Shown here one piece after another: positions 9,891 through 38,880 of a stretch of 41,891 bases of DNA. The stretch is taken from contig JAFYIE010000044.1 of NCBI GenBank assembly GCA_017538795.1, positions 1 to 41,891 on the forward strand, given 5' to 3'. Every line of letters starts with the position of its first letter. Position 1 is the stretch's first letter. Source of the stretch: Bacteroidales bacterium (GTDB lineage Bacteria > Bacteroidota > Bacteroidia > Bacteroidales > F082). A program made the translations under genes and the position numbers. The notes under the pieces are model-generated. The model worked only from the letters and a program-made list of their open reading frames with translations. It was not told the DNA's origin and did not search any database.

Positions 9891-10019
9891 GCCCTAACGG
9901 GCGGTTATTTGTCACTTTTCCCTTGATGGAAAAGTAATCAAAAGATCAAGCGCCAGCCGAAGCTCTAACCGCCGTCTGGCGCGGGCCCGTGCTGTAAACC
10001 ACGTGGGGGCGAAGCCATG
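9891..10019 (-). repeat. Dispersed intergenic repeat, copy 1
   Basis: About 129 bp, homologous in reverse complement to 30062-30198. Shared blocks read on the minus strand are CCCCCACGT, GCCCGCGC, GCGCTTGATCTTT, CCATCAAGGGAAA and CCGCCCGT-AGGGC. The two copies differ in the middle and carry short internal palindromes (CTTTTCCATCAAGGGAAAAG type). It looks like a non-coding mobile or recombinogenic repeat common to Bacteroidota; I see no protein in it. Confidence 0.75.
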
Positions 10020-10020
10020 T

Positions 10021-10095
10021 ATTGTTGATATATTATCAAACGATGATACAATTAAACAATTTAGATATGCTATTGATAATGTTGGTGTAGAATAA
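10021..10095 (+). pseudogene. Possible 3' remnant of a lost gene
   Basis: Immediately after the dispersed repeat, an open frame reads IVDILSNDDTIKQFRYAIDN followed by VGVE and a TAA stop at 10093. The composition looks protein-like, and it ends 3 nt before the convergent gene. There is no start codon; upstream lies only repeat sequence. This would fit a gene truncated by arrival of, or recombination at, the repeat. It is too short for a firm call. Confidence 0.25.
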
Positions 10096-16927: not shown

Positions 16928-16958
16928 TTGACAAACGACAAAAATTGTTGTATCTTTG
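16928..16958 (+). promoter_or_regulatory. Strong promoter for small RNA S1
   Basis: TTGACA (16928-16933) and TATCTTTG (16951-16958), with TTGT just before the -7 box. The same arrangement, TTGACAAA...TTGTAT(C/T)TTTGCA, drives the other two small RNA candidates in the window. Confidence 0.75.
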
Positions 16959-16963
16959 CATCG

Positions 16964-17035
16964 TCAAGCGAGATGCTGGCGCCGTTGCGATTACTTCGGG
17001 AAGGTTGATGATCCCACAAAGCAGCGGCTTTTTTT
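16964..17035 (+). ncRNA. Candidate small RNA S1, convergent to the toxin-like gene
   Basis: About 72 nt from the predicted start to a hairpin plus T7. GCCGTTGC (16981-16988) pairs with GCAGCGGC (17021-17028, one T-G wobble), followed by TTTTTTT. Inside the arms, GGG (16998-17000) can pair with CCC (17013-17015). No start codon is followed by a credible frame. Its T-tract touches the stop codon of the convergent gene at 17034. Confidence 0.6.
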
Positions 17036-17510
17036 ATTCCAGTTGTGGAAGCGTCACTGAATACTGAAGAAACATCATTGAAGGATTTAGCCTCACCCCT
17101 ATTAACGTTTTTGCGACGCCATAGTCTTCAAGCATAGCTTTCAATCTGTAAACAAAAATAAAATGAAACTTTGATGTTTGGGTTCTGCTGACAGGAATAT
17201 CCATTCCGTCATAAACCGATTTTTCAATCAATTCAACCACATTCAATGCCGCAATTGTCGATTCTTTTGTGATTGCCGCATTTTCCGATGTTTCGACGAT
17301 GCTTTTAAGAATAATTAAAACATTCACTCCGAGTGACGGACAATAAATTGTTTTTCCATCAAGATTATTAAGATGTTTCTTGAGGAAATCCCTTCTTTCT
17401 GCCACCGATTCCGGGATAGAATCTATTAACTCTTTCGAAACTGTGTTTTTAACAACCGGATAAGTTGTAAAAACCTTGTCATTTTTCTCGTAAAACTCTT
17501 TTTTCGTCAT
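17034..17510 (-). CDS. Toxin-like protein, possibly LPD3/BECR-related nuclease domain
   Basis: 158 residues from ATG 17510 (MTKKEFYEKNDKVFTTYPVV). The C-terminal half runs GKTIYCPSLGVNVLIILKSI, ETSENAAITKESTIAALNVV, then TSKFHFIFVYRLKAML and QYSVT. This resembles the polyvalent-protein-associated (LPD3) and phage Barnase/EndoU/ColicinE5/RelE-like domains I remember from polymorphic-toxin literature, but the match is by pattern only. The frame can be read from a TTG at 17552, but that lies in the conserved leader hairpin, so 17510 is chosen. No antitoxin gene is adjacent; the convergent small RNA S1 abuts the stop. Confidence 0.5.
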   Translation of the reverse strand: MTKKEFYEKNDKVFTTYPVVKNTVSKELIDSIPESVAERRDFLKKHLNNLDGKTIYCPSLGVNVLIILKSIVETSENAAITKESTIAALNVVELIEKSVYDGMDIPVSRTQTSKFHFIFVYRLKAMLEDYGVAKTLIGVRLNPSMMFLQYSVTLPQLE

Positions 17511-17630
17511 ACATTTAATTTTAAAATTAAACAATAAAATATCCTTTCGCAATCCTGCGAACTCCCAATCCCATTAGTATTTTGTTTTACGATGCTCTTT
17601 TGTTATGGTTCTAAATCGGGTACAAAGATA
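17511..17630 (-). promoter_or_regulatory. Recurrent leader, copy A
   Basis: Minus-strand order: -7 box TATCTTTG (17623-17630), AACCATAAC, AGCATCGTAAAACA, AATGGGATTGGG, then hairpin TTCGC/GCGAA (17546-17561). A 15-residue upstream ORF, MGLGVRRIAKGYFIV, spans 17527-17574. Copies C and B match it over most of this length; copy D matches the central block and has a different but complementary hairpin. Confidence 0.8.
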
Positions 17631-17704
17631 AGGAAATTTTTGGTTTTGGCAAGAGAGGTCTAAGTGAAATTTTGAACATTTTATGGCAAATCCTATCTTA
17701 AAAC

Positions 17705-27789: not shown

Positions 27790-27924
27790 TATCTTTGCAC
27801 TCGTTATTGAACCATAACTAAAATAGCATCGTAAAACAAAATGACAAATGGGATGGGGAGTTCGCAGGATGGCGAAAGGAATTTTTATTGTGTAAAAAAA
27901 ATTAAAAGAAATGATGCTACTATT
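27790..27924 (+). promoter_or_regulatory. Recurrent leader, copy C
   Basis: Order: -7 box TATCTTTG (27790-27797), GAACCATAAC, AGCATCGTAAAACA, AATGGGATGGGG, hairpin TTCGC/GCGAA (27861-27876). The upstream ORF MGWGVRRMAKGIFIV occupies 27848-27895. Copies A and C also share TCTTGCCAAAACCAAAAAT upstream of the -7 box, so their promoters are related too. Confidence 0.8.
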
Positions 27925-28365
27925 ATGAAAAGTGTAATTAAGACTATTGAAATCGGAAAATTTGGACCTATTTATAGACAATTTGTAAGAAAACCAAAAG
28001 AAGCAATAAAACATCTCCGCAAAATGCAAAACGGAGAATGCACTAAAGCGCTTTATCGCGATGATATCGGATTCATTGATATCGTTTGGGGAGAAGTCAC
28101 CGATCCGATAAAACATAAGGGATATGGATTGGCTCATATAATTGATAAACATGAACCAGAAATAAATAGACTTGGGTTCAAAATAGAGGATTTTATCCCC
28201 ATCGTGGTTCAGTTCGGAGATTTCAACCTAAAAAAGTCTGACAATCAGAAAAAAGTATTTGAAAGCAAGGGATTCCGCTTTGTCATAGCATTACAAAAAG
28301 AGGCGCAAGGTCGCACAAAAAAGTGGCTACTTACAGCATTTGATATAATAAAAAGACCGAAGTAA
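27925..28365 (+). CDS. BECR-fold (phage Barnase/EndoU/ColicinE5/RelE-like) nuclease domain protein
   Basis: 146 residues from ATG 27925 (MKSVIKTIEIGKFGPIYRQF). The pattern GFIDIVWGEVTDP, GYGLAHIIDKHEPE, then RFVIALQKEAQGRTKKWLLT followed by AFDI matches the phage-associated BECR nuclease domains that I recall from MuF and polymorphic toxins. His and Lys in the HIIDKH block are likely active-site residues. No immunity or antitoxin gene is adjacent. The upstream frame from 27841 is only the leader. The last codons (K-R-P-K-stop) are part of the terminator hairpin of the convergent small RNA S2. Confidence 0.7.
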   Translation: MKSVIKTIEIGKFGPIYRQFVRKPKEAIKHLRKMQNGECTKALYRDDIGFIDIVWGEVTDPIKHKGYGLAHIIDKHEPEINRLGFKIEDFIPIVVQFGDFNLKKSDNQKKVFESKGFRFVIALQKEAQGRTKKWLLTAFDIIKRPK

Positions 28366-28445
28366 AACCTCGGTCTTATACTTTCGTCACTGTCAAAAAC
28401 ATCGACGCTGACAGTCTTCGTTACCTGCGCTGTATGGTAAAACGA
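28349..28445 (-). ncRNA. Candidate small RNA S2, convergent to the BECR gene
   Basis: About 97 nt on the minus strand. Hairpins: TTACC/GGTAA, ACTGTCA/TGACAGT, then the terminator AAGACCGA/TCGGTCTT (28353-28360 and 28370-28377) followed by a T-tract. No credible reading frame. The 3' end overlaps the last five codons of the BECR-like gene in antisense. Being bounded by a promoter and a terminator with no ORF, it has the same general format as the published Bacteroidales-1 RNA motif; I cannot confirm a match. Confidence 0.6.
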
Positions 28446-28450
28446 CACTG

Positions 28451-28481
28451 CAAAGATACAACAAATTTCAAATTTTGTCAA
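28451..28481 (-). promoter_or_regulatory. Strong promoter for small RNA S2
   Basis: Minus strand: TTGACA (28476-28481) and TATCTTTG (28451-28458), with TTGT before the -7 box, the same form as at S1 and S3. Confidence 0.75.
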
Positions 28482-30063: not shown

Positions 30064-30198
30064 TGCCGTAGGCATCTCCCCCACGTCGCTTCGCGGTGCG
30101 GTGGCCCGCGCAAAAAGTGCGGTTCGAGCTTATTTTTGCGCTTGATCTTTGGTTCTTTCCATCAAGGGAAAGAACAAGAAAAAACCGCCCGTCAGGGC
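30062..30198 (+). repeat. Dispersed intergenic repeat, copy 2
   Basis: About 137 bp homologous to the reverse complement of 9891-10019. Shared blocks: CCCCCACGT, GCCCGCGC, GCGCTTGATCTTT, CCATCAAGGGAAA, CCGCCCGT-AGGGC. It starts at the stop codon of the antitoxin gene. Confidence 0.75.
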
Positions 30199-37412: not shown

Positions 37413-37510
37413 TATCTTTGCATCGTATTCATAACCGAAAACAGCAGAGTATCGTAAAACATTTATTGGAATTGGGAAGTCACTGATCTGAGCAGTGATT
37501 GGTATTGATT
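37413..37510 (+). promoter_or_regulatory. Recurrent leader, copy D, without a gene
   Basis: Order: -7 box TATCTTTG (37413-37420), CATAACCGAAAACAGCAGAG, TATCGTAAAACA, GGAATTGGGAAG, hairpin TCACTG/CAGTGA (37480-37485 and 37493-37498). The block and spacing match copies A-C, but the hairpin arms are replaced by a different complementary pair and the short upstream ORF is absent. Downstream comes only the terminator of small RNA S3, so there is no gene to serve. Confidence 0.65.
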
Positions 37511-37519
37511 TGTAAAATG

Positions 37520-37641
37520 AAAAAGGAGACCGAAGTCTCCCTTTATATCGTAGTCGCCCCTGCTACGAGGCCGCTTGCTCGACCTGTCTGTTAGCCACCC
37601 AACGCATAATATAGCAAGGTGCGAGGGCCTGGGCGCTCCAG
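37520..37641 (-). ncRNA. Candidate small RNA S3
   Basis: About 120 nt on the minus strand, G+C-rich compared with its surroundings. Contains CGTAG/CTACG and other hairpins and ends in GGAGAC-TTCG-GTCTCC-TTTTT (37525-37540), a UUCG-tetraloop terminator. No credible reading frame. It converges on leader D and lies downstream of the ORF6N gene on the same strand. Possible relation to Bacteroidales-1-type RNAs untested. Confidence 0.65.
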
Positions 37642-37647
37642 ACGATG

Positions 37648-37677
37648 CAAAAATACAAAATATTTTTGATTTGTCAA
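37648..37677 (-). promoter_or_regulatory. Strong promoter for small RNA S3
   Basis: Minus strand: TTGACA (37672-37677) and TATTTTTG (37648-37655) followed by CATCGTC, the same form as the S1 promoter (which is also followed by CATCGTC). Confidence 0.75.
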
Positions 37678-37716: not shown

Positions 37717-38763
37717 CTATTTCGTCAAATTCTTCTCCAAACTGCTGATAATATTCCTATAAAGCATCACGTCTTCAACTTTTGTGATCGAAGTCACTCG
37801 TTTGCCAGCGTCTTTTGATGAACCTCCACAATGAAAAATCATCTCGTTTTTGGTGTCATAATCAATGAAAATATACCTGTCGTGATAAATACCACCTATT
37901 GTGTTCAAAGTAATATCGACATTCGGATATTCTCGTTTGAAATCGTCAATTTCAGTCTGATGAAGACCATGATTGACATTGTCGCTAAATATTATCACCT
38001 TCACTCCTATCGCCACCGATTTCAGCAAAACCAAAGTTTTCAAACTTATATAATTATCAATGATATGAATGGTTTTCTTCGCGTTGGAATAAATCTCCGC
38101 GTATGCAATATCAGCTTCAACAGTTTGCCCGTTATAGAAAAGATAATCCTTTTTGATATTCGGGTCGGTGAAATCTTTAATAACCAAAGACAATTCATCA
38201 CGGGTCACCATATTTTGCTTTATATAATGGATGTCATTTGTGTTGTTTTTAGTCTGTATAGCCAGAACATGCAATTCAACATCCGGCAAAACATTAGTGG
38301 TTTGAATGGCGAAATCTTTTAGTTTCTTAAAAAGTCTGATTAGCTTTTTACTCTGCTTTACTGCAAGATCGCCTTTCAGCACCATCATTAGAGAATAGAT
38401 ACCGAGTTCTGTAAAAGCGTAAGGAAGATATTGACGACCGCCTCTTTTTTCAGGTTTTGAGGTCAAAAATTTTGACCTCAAAACAGACTCTTTATCGTAT
38501 ATTACTGAATCACTGTTAGTTACAAATTCGTTTGAGGTGCAAAAATTGCACCTCAAACTTTCATACTCGCTATTAGTAAGTTGAAATCGCATATCATCAT
38601 CAAATCGTTCAATATTGTTTTTAACTTGTTGATTGAATGATTTTGTTGAATATCCATAAATCTCCGCCAAATCGGCATCAAGCATCACCTGCACCCCTCT
38701 GATGATGTAAATCTTTGATTTTAAATAATTTTCGTCATAAATTGACAATTCATTGTTTACCAT
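37717..38763 (-). CDS. ORF6N domain protein with PLD-like C-terminal domain
   Basis: 348 residues from ATG 38763 (MVNNELSIYDENYLKSKIYI). The ORF6N domain covers about 10-120: IYIIRGVQVMLDADLAEIYG, STKSFNQQVKNNIERF, DDDMRFQLTNSEYE, then PYAFTELGIYSLMMVLKGD. The C-terminal half (FYNGQTVEADIAYAEIYSNA, IHIIDNYISLKTLVLL, GGIYHDRYIFIDYDTKNE, FHCGGSSKDAGKR) resembles a single phospholipase-D-like domain with HDRYIFID at the place of HxKxxxxD. ORF6N proteins are phage- or mobile-element-associated and probably bind DNA. The frame starts 11 codons earlier, in the leader; 38763 is preferred. The central region (about 65-90) looks like a variable insert. Confidence 0.85.
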   Translation of the reverse strand: MVNNELSIYDENYLKSKIYIIRGVQVMLDADLAEIYGYSTKSFNQQVKNNIERFDDDMRFQLTNSEYESLRCNFCTSNEFVTNSDSVIYDKESVLRSKFLTSKPEKRGGRQYLPYAFTELGIYSLMMVLKGDLAVKQSKKLIRLFKKLKDFAIQTTNVLPDVELHVLAIQTKNNTNDIHYIKQNMVTRDELSLVIKDFTDPNIKKDYLFYNGQTVEADIAYAEIYSNAKKTIHIIDNYISLKTLVLLKSVAIGVKVIIFSDNVNHGLHQTEIDDFKREYPNVDITLNTIGGIYHDRYIFIDYDTKNEMIFHCGGSSKDAGKRVTSITKVEDVMLYRNIISSLEKNLTK

Positions 38764-38880
38764 ATTTTTAAAATTTAAAACATAATACAATCCCATTTCG
38801 CCTCTATGCGAACACCCAATCCCATTTGTATTCTGTTTTACAATGCTTTTCAGTTATGGCTCAAATCGGCTACAAATATA
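38764..38880 (-). promoter_or_regulatory. Recurrent leader, copy B
   Basis: Minus-strand order: -7 box TATATTTG (38873-38880), GAGCCATAAC, AGCATTGTAAAACA, AATGGGATTGGG, hairpin TTCGC/GCGAA (38797-38812). The upstream ORF MGLGVRIEAKWDCIMF occupies 38775-38825. Closest to copies A and C in the first 80 nt. Confidence 0.8.

Follow-up and report, generated by a model that had tools for sequence, protein, structure and literature searches.

The stretch of DNA analysed here, called the window in the following, is the whole 41,891-nt contig JAFYIE010000044.1 of a Bacteroidales bacterium (family F082, assembly GCA_017538795.1). It carries four copies, A to D, of a leader of about 110 bases that comprises a promoter and an RNA part (Table 1). 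Copy A precedes an LPD3-like gene, copy B a PBECR1 gene and copy D an ORF6N gene, and copy C stands without a gene; a relative has a 143-aa gene at the site of copy C (L050), and in the window leader and trailer are joined there. A sequence-only reading of this DNA had claimed that four regions share a series of blocks in the same order and spacing and that the genes behind them are unrelated. Copies A-D are all found at the places given in that reading, with the blocks in the order and spacing it described, and the genes are indeed unrelated. Model R1, whose rows are copies A, B and D and one copy from a relative, finds the held-out copy C at 39.7 bits (E 3e-7 for the window, 1.8e-5 for the genome), and in the same genome it finds two further convincing copies, C22:80099 (64 bits) and C22:24697 (46 bits). 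In the blastp cluster of gene A, L046 (30.8), L102 (32.3) and L065 (30) exceed the cut-off for LPD3 (PF18798), and L075 is without a match.

Table 1. Leaders, genes and predicted small RNAs in the window
Feature	Position	Strand	Remarks
Promoter-like site behind gene A, convergent	16928..16958	+
Predicted small RNA convergent to gene A	16965..17038	+	terminator-like end 17018-17038; predicted start
Gene A	17034..17510	-	158 aa; LPD3-like, 21.2 bits, under the Pfam cut-off of 27
Copy A, partner of core GTTTTACGA	17488..17496	-	codons 5-8 of gene A
Copy A, hairpin TTCGC-AGGATT-GCGAA	17546..17561	-	covariation of the leader hairpin
Copy A, core AGCATCGTAAAAC	17584..17596	-	most conserved block together with the -7 box (72 distinct rows)
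Copy A, promoter	17623..17652	-	-33-like TTGCCAAA 17645-17652; -7 box TATCTTTG 17623-17630
Copy B, -7 box TATCTTTG	27790..27797	+
Copy B, core AGCATCGTAAAAC	27825..27837	+
Copy B, hairpin	27861..27876	+	covariation of the leader hairpin
Copy B, partner of core ATGATGCT	27911..27918	+	7-14 nt before ATG
Gene B	27925..28365	+	PBECR1 (PF18809), 73.2 bits against a cut-off of 27.6, E 2.7e-20
Predicted small RNA convergent to gene B	28352..28446	-	scores 101.8 bits with model R3, of whose twelve rows it is one
Promoter-like site belonging to the small RNA behind gene B	28451..28481	-
Copy C, leader	37413..37498	+	-7 box TATCTTTG 37413-37420; core AGTATCGTAAAAC 37448-37460; hairpin 37480-37498; gene missing
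Predicted small RNA left at copy C	37520..37642	-	intrinsic-terminator-like end 37520-37541; promoter-like site 37648-37677; predicted start
Gene D	37717..38763	-	ORF6N (E 2.6e-29); PADLOC candidate PDC-S05 (E 2.5e-98)
Copy D, possible partner of core, ACAATG	38751..38756	-	not significant, p 0.44
Copy D, hairpin	38797..38812	-	covariation of the leader hairpin
Copy D, core AGCATTGTAAAAC	38835..38847	-
Copy D, -7 box TATATTTG	38873..38880	-

Anatomy and distribution of the leader

Copies of the leader generally have a -7 box, then the core AGCATCGTAAAAC at a distance of about 27 nt, a five-pair hairpin, and TATTGTTTAA ahead of the start; the -33 and -7 boxes are named after the Bacteroidetes promoter consensus. 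Among the blocks that the sequence-only reading had called common, the -7 box, the core and the hairpin are general, but GGGATTGGG and CATAAC mark only the subgroup of copies A, B and D. A conserved leader peptide after TATTGTTTAA was considered and rejected, as the reading frames differ among the copies when compared by eye.

In 41 copies, each of the five hairpin pairs has changed on both sides (5/5) and 94.8% of the cells pair, a result that is reached by none of 500 shuffles and lost when the partner is slid, in an alignment that was fitted to the hairpin and is thereby biased towards it. When the set is enlarged to 79 distinct rows, with false and doubtful ones kept in, 91.0% of the cells pair and 42 cells hold double changes, and 35 of 500 shuffles equal the count of pairs changed on both sides. 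The arms of copy C (TCACTG/CAGTGA, against TTCGC/GCGAA) show a compensating change that is seen by eye. The hairpin is supported by these sequences as an RNA fold with covarying pairs.

Copies beyond A-D, for which the sequence-only reading had proposed a search, occur both in the same genome and in the genomes of relatives. Sixty sampled genomes of the genus were searched with R1, and 14 of them gave a match, at 44 places; 12 of 60 remain after removing L035 and L036, which were judged false. A broader model, R2, was built from 41 copies. Across the family it matches 18 of 173 genomes, all of its own genus (1 of 16 genera), and across the order 4 of 393, where the sole match outside the genus is weak and without a gene (G220/L074, 43.9 bits); these wide searches score few candidates per genome, so that weak copies may escape. 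A strict leader pattern is present in 25 stretches of genome contigs, 19 of which are titled Bacteroidales and several after ruminant stomach samples; eight of the 25 were run against R2, and L082, L085, L097 and L100 went unmatched. Rfam 15 has no gathering match in the window, and in 12 loci it has three matches, with E 0.12-0.22, all below the gathering score. As judged from these collections, the leader family is clade-specific, belonging to one genus of gut bacteria.

The 84 matches of R2 were reduced by ten to the 74 copies analysed. L081, L092, L089:5897, L091 and L032 were dropped as second views of other loci, L035, L011 and L060 as judged false, and L089:800 and L075:1799 as weak second rows; the doubtful L074 and L041:1628 are kept among the 74, and L036, judged false, lies outside the set. 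One contig (G005:C28, L045) holds three leaders in about 2 kb, two before tandem LPD3-like paralogues and one, facing the opposite way, before an ORF6N gene. At G000:C40:41862 (L120) there is a degenerate leader without promoter, with a different hairpin after the exact core.

Pairing of the core with the gene start

Between the core AGCATCGTAAAAC, which hardly varies, and the start region of the gene, 65-110 nt further on, base pairing is possible, at a place that depends on the family. The partner lies in codons 5-8 in the EFYE group, directly before the ATG in PBECR1-B and L058, in codons 8-11 in L059 and L117, and over the ATG in L045, L009 and L116, as it does, without significance, in L043 and L049. 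An N-terminus M...EFYE is common to members of four unrelated families (LPD3, ORF6N, DUF1016 and four-helix), and its codons hold the partner. Compared with shuffles, the best contiguous pairing has p < 0.05 in 13 of 32 representatives (Fisher 2.7e-10), or in 10 of 29 with a single EFYE representative (Fisher 2e-7), these Fisher values being optimistic since the representatives are related; in 19 of the 32, copy D included, it is not significant. Both controls are flat, with the reversed core giving 0/32 and the leader segment upstream of the core 1/32. The position of the partner is not one fixed place: 12 of the 13 significant representatives have its beginning between -14 and +22, and the other, L044, at -54 relative to the called start; there, as in L040 and L064, the first-ATG rule for gene starts may miss the true start. 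When the search is extended to ATG+300, the best partner is at -30..+35 in 18 of 28 cases, and in 14 of 24 with one EFYE row.

Nineteen altered cores were compared with the standard core on their own gene: six score higher (own/standard: L009 19/16, L045 23/20, L116 24/12, L050 18/11, L114 19/13, L076 12/10), eleven tie and two score lower (L117 20/21, L111 12/17). Because ensemble folding of 33 sequences gives more pairs between the arms (13.6 vs 6.4, Fisher 6e-8; p < 0.05 in 10 of 33), core and partner probably meet, and the helix they form would silence translation. The footprint of the 30S subunit would cover most partner positions. Start codons (+-12 nt) are no less accessible than in shuffles (0.482 vs 0.476, Fisher 0.27), and masking of the start codon in its simple form is rejected as a general statement on this ground. 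RNA-based control was among the explanations offered in the sequence-only reading; it gains from the covariation of the hairpin and the core-to-start pairing but not from the unchanged accessibility, and falls short of proof.

A shared regulator was another of those explanations. The core could be a DNA operator or an RNA site of one trans regulator, for example the ORF6N protein, the match to the start being secondary. Such a regulator would fit a core that is nearly invariant while its partner moves, an invariance that pairing alone would not demand, and no cargo family is larger than ORF6N (20 of 64 genes). However, the one pattern search found none, the hairpin pairs are kept while their letters change, which fits an RNA fold over a protein operator, and the core changes in L009, L045, L116, L050 and L114 accompany matching start regions. 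The genome moreover has only four exact 12-nt core sites, namely copies A and B, one coding-like site and the degenerate leader L120. A regulator of this kind is unlikely in my view, and an RNA acting in trans with the complement of the core is rejected on the same four sites.

It is very improbable that the leader reflects common descent alone, with a recent spread in which fold and pairing have no role. The family search, with all its matches in one genus, would be in keeping with this, but the blockwise conservation, the hairpin covariation and the pairing with different starts under flat controls disfavour it.

Exchangeable cargo and convergent small RNAs

By a script rule, 64 of the 74 copies have an open frame behind them. 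The first genes belong to at least eight families and not to one, as the sequence-only reading of a leader independent of gene ancestry had implied. As assigned by scanning chosen members, they are ORF6N (20), LPD3-like (19), PBECR1 (11), four-helix (4) and DUF1016 (3) genes and, more rarely, CL5 (unknown; 2), HicA (2), AlbA_2, RecQ-like and RhuM genes (1 each). A DUF1016 gene (L104) matches PADLOC candidate PDC-S02. In both HicA cassettes an extra -7 box separates the leader from the gene, and the core of the RecQ leader is aberrant. The cargo is made up of toxin-like or defence-like genes, whose products may be toxic.

The same site can hold different cargo. At the GNAT/rpsA site in eight genomes, including the own genome, the leader is followed by LPD3 in four, four-helix in three and HicA in one, and one of the LPD3 genomes has an additional HicA copy 2 kb upstream. 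At the infC-side site, also in eight genomes, it is followed by PBECR1 in four (one of them broken), LPD3 in two and an ORF6N-like fragment, named by eye, in two. When 23 leaders are compared, the one nearest to each of the 16 at these two chromosomal sites is from the same site in 16 of 16 cases, with or without the upstream flank. It has the same cargo in 4 of 16 when 40 nt of the flank are taken along, and in 5 of 16 when they are not. From the core onwards only, these values are 14/16 and, ties counted, 9/16, and the leader tree is poorly resolved, with 13 of 20 inner branches open. Because the nearest leader shares the site, often before other cargo, at both sites the leader looks resident and its gene looks exchanged; some exchange looks to extend into the 3' half of the leader.

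It is quite improbable that the leader is itself a recombination or mobility site, integron-like or acting as a single-strand hairpin, whose fold serves DNA exchange. The differing cargo behind leaders at one site would agree with this, as would the lon site, where a CL5 gene lies between leader and trailer in a relative but is missing from the window, which has cassette D alongside, so that the gene of one cassette went missing and a second cassette came in, and the EFYE subgroup, in which the shared sequence stops about 11 nt past the partner of the core (L062). However, copies lie scattered across contigs and not in arrays, the promoter is part of the conserved block, the core fails the attC box rule, and plain homologous recombination would account for the exchange as well. 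The leader of copy A also lacks a blastn match (distant) in plasmid or phage collections, and the strict leader pattern occurs in none of the viral contigs. Of the mobile cassette boundary that the sequence-only reading had offered as a further explanation, the part that stands is that the gene behind the leader differs between genomes, but at two sites the leader is the resident part. A dispersed G+C-rich intergenic repeat is present at 9905-10026 and 30103-30182 of the window, and the first of these is matched in L029, L045, L049, L064, L069, L116 and L118.

A convergent -7 box lies 20-150 nt past the stop codon in 15 of 18 LPD3, 10 of 11 PBECR1 and 2 of 2 CL5 genes. By the same test it is found in 1 of 18 ORF6N genes and in none of the four-helix (0/4), DUF1016 (0/3), HicA (0/2), RhuM (0/1) and unassigned (0/1) genes, four of the 64 genes having been left out since their trailers are too short. 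The sense-strand control gives 3/18 for LPD3, 1/11 for PBECR1, 0/2 for CL5 and 4/18 for ORF6N. With intactness judged by length, all 25 intact LPD3, PBECR1 and CL5 genes have the convergent box, against 2 of 6 broken ones. When PBECR1 genes are collected by their Pfam family, the box lies within 36-134 nt at 35 of 38 loci (sense control 2/38); 29 of these loci are without a leader by their place, two are the same gene, and the box at 43 in L144 may be due to chance. The three loci without a convergent box are parts of large proteins. For 30 LPD3 loci collected by family, the box is 20-150 nt past the stop in 19, at 158-168 in eight, and absent within 230 nt in three. A reading of the two promoters as terminal inverted repeats is rejected, the 3' promoter more likely driving a small RNA; leader and small RNA would both be transcribed.

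The predicted PBECR1 RNA has three helices, in which 12 of 16 pairs have changed on both sides and 94.7% pair, a result reached by 0 of 500 shuffles (12 rows), and the stop codon of the gene lies inside its terminator, so that RNA and gene overlap at the 3' end. Model R3 matches 30 of 171 genomes of the family and 11 of 384 genomes of the order (8 of 205 genera). Outside the genus it finds seven loci, each of another family of the order. In four of these a PBECR1 frame ends inside the RNA (L239, L243, L245 and, truncated, L244), where the genomes of L239 and L243 are represented in the twelve rows of R3 and L245 and L244 are the independent ones; L241, L242 and L246 match R3 without a PBECR1 frame. 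The RNA is retained without an intact gene at copy C, L217, L229 and L244, and retention where the gene is broken or gone is the pattern expected of an antitoxin. One PBECR1-type RNA stands behind an LPD3 gene. The convergent RNA is probably an antitoxin for the LPD3, PBECR1 and CL5 cargo.

Alternatively, the convergent RNAs could be antisense regulators, type I like, that base-pair with the toxin mRNA and are not folded antitoxins. The overlap of the terminator region with the stop codon gives them the 3' complementarity this calls for, and such a role is possible, if somewhat doubtful: in 27 cassettes the RNA pairs no better with its own 5' region than with mismatched ones (mean 18.3 vs 19.5), and the PBECR1 RNA keeps its covarying three-helix fold across families. 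In particular, the idea that the convergent RNA pairs with the leader in a type-I-like manner is rejected, as mismatched pairs do just as well.

Several variants of these modules were also observed. A second variant of the PBECR1 RNA (L146 and others) lies outside the 12-row count. In the genus, PBECR1 and LPD3 genes without the leader (L146-L155, L182, L186, L190, L191, L200) have a different 5' region in common, in which AAACGTTTAATCAACGG or a near variant precedes a promoter-like site, and the LPD3 genes of the genus (L182-L211) end in several RNA types, for example with GGGATGAGAGAACACCGG or with TTGGATTGTAGTTCCAAGAACCAG. The own genome has a distant second PBECR1 gene (G000:C107:17256-17564, L181), where a convergent box stands 108 nt beyond the stop. 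At L237 (G061:C3:68400-70300), LPD3 and PBECR1 modules lie in tandem, both with a PBECR1-type RNA, the first partial, and an IMG/VR contig (L238) carries a PBECR1 relative (56%) whose stop is followed after 64 nt by a convergent -7 box; a GCAGTG-loop hairpin is present there too.

Proposed mechanism and known systems

I propose, with a probability of roughly 0.55, that the leader is a clade-specific, RNA-controlled expression site for exchangeable toxin-like or defence-like genes, three kinds of which probably come with an RNA antitoxin. The promoter and the structured 5' leader would stay at a chromosomal site, the gene behind them being exchanged; in one subgroup the resident part would also take in the first ~11 codons. 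Outside the small covarying hairpin, the core would be held by its long-range pairing to the start region, and this helix would keep the toxin-like or defence-like genes at low translation, and ribosome loading would probably stay restricted until processing, a protein or another RNA releases the core. For the three cargo kinds, a convergent, separately promoted small RNA that ends at the stop codon of the gene would act as a second safety. The leader family, its hairpin, the pairing potential, the differing cargo, the convergent promoter-like sites and, for one RNA type, covariation can be read from the sequences themselves, from which translational control and antitoxin action are predicted. 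More tentatively, and at a little less than even odds, the leader would be a resident, RNA-controlled one with a repressing arm fitted to the start of each gene, and the stand-alone PBECR1, LPD3 and CL5 toxins would be neutralised by a new, folded, convergent RNA antitoxin across several Bacteroidales families.

In type I toxin-antitoxin systems with a convergent RNA, of the par/Fst and txpA/RatA type, a toxin gene likewise faces a small RNA with which it has the terminator region in common, and a structured 5' leader is present. The RNA and the gene overlap at the 3' end here as well (PBECR1). However, the type I toxins are small hydrophobic peptides, whereas the proteins here have 137-177 aa and RNase-like or unknown domains, and the RNA shows no own-specific pairing with the 5' region of the toxin mRNA. 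Type III systems of the ToxIN type resemble the present case in that a structured RNA adjoins a predicted RNase, but there a repeat-array RNA lies upstream in the transcript of the toxin, whereas here the RNA lies downstream, faces the gene and has a promoter-like site of its own; Pfam scans of LPD3, PBECR1 and CL5 proteins found no ToxN-type family. The start-associated repeats SAS/ESAS of mycobacteriophages also place one sequence before many genes, in that case phage genes. The leader differs from them by its promoter-like site, covarying hairpin and start pairing, and the leader of copy A has no match in the phage records searched; from integrons and their attC sites it differs by the lack of a cassette array.

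The PADLOC candidates PDC-S05 and PDC-S02, which are known here by the profile matches of gene D and L104 only, are counted among the common systems in rumen genomes (PMC13356809), and the available part of that paper does not mention a shared leader. PBECR1 and LPD3 were defined as domains of polyvalent proteins, and the same domains stand here as genes of their own with a convergent RNA; the main text of that work, as available, does not contain the word 'noncoding' (PMC5512222). Among the literature matches listed for Bacteroid- ORF6N, LPD3, RNA antitoxins, convergent RNAs and shared leaders, a scope with most subscription papers and preprints outside it, neither element is described.

If the proposed reading is true, one leader with swappable cargo governs unrelated defence-like and toxin-like genes, and it would help to track down further genes of this sort and to study what turns silent defence genes on. 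The PBECR1 and LPD3 RNA modules would then add a type of RNA antitoxin in the Bacteroidales, and the stand-alone domains of polyvalent proteins would gain a role.
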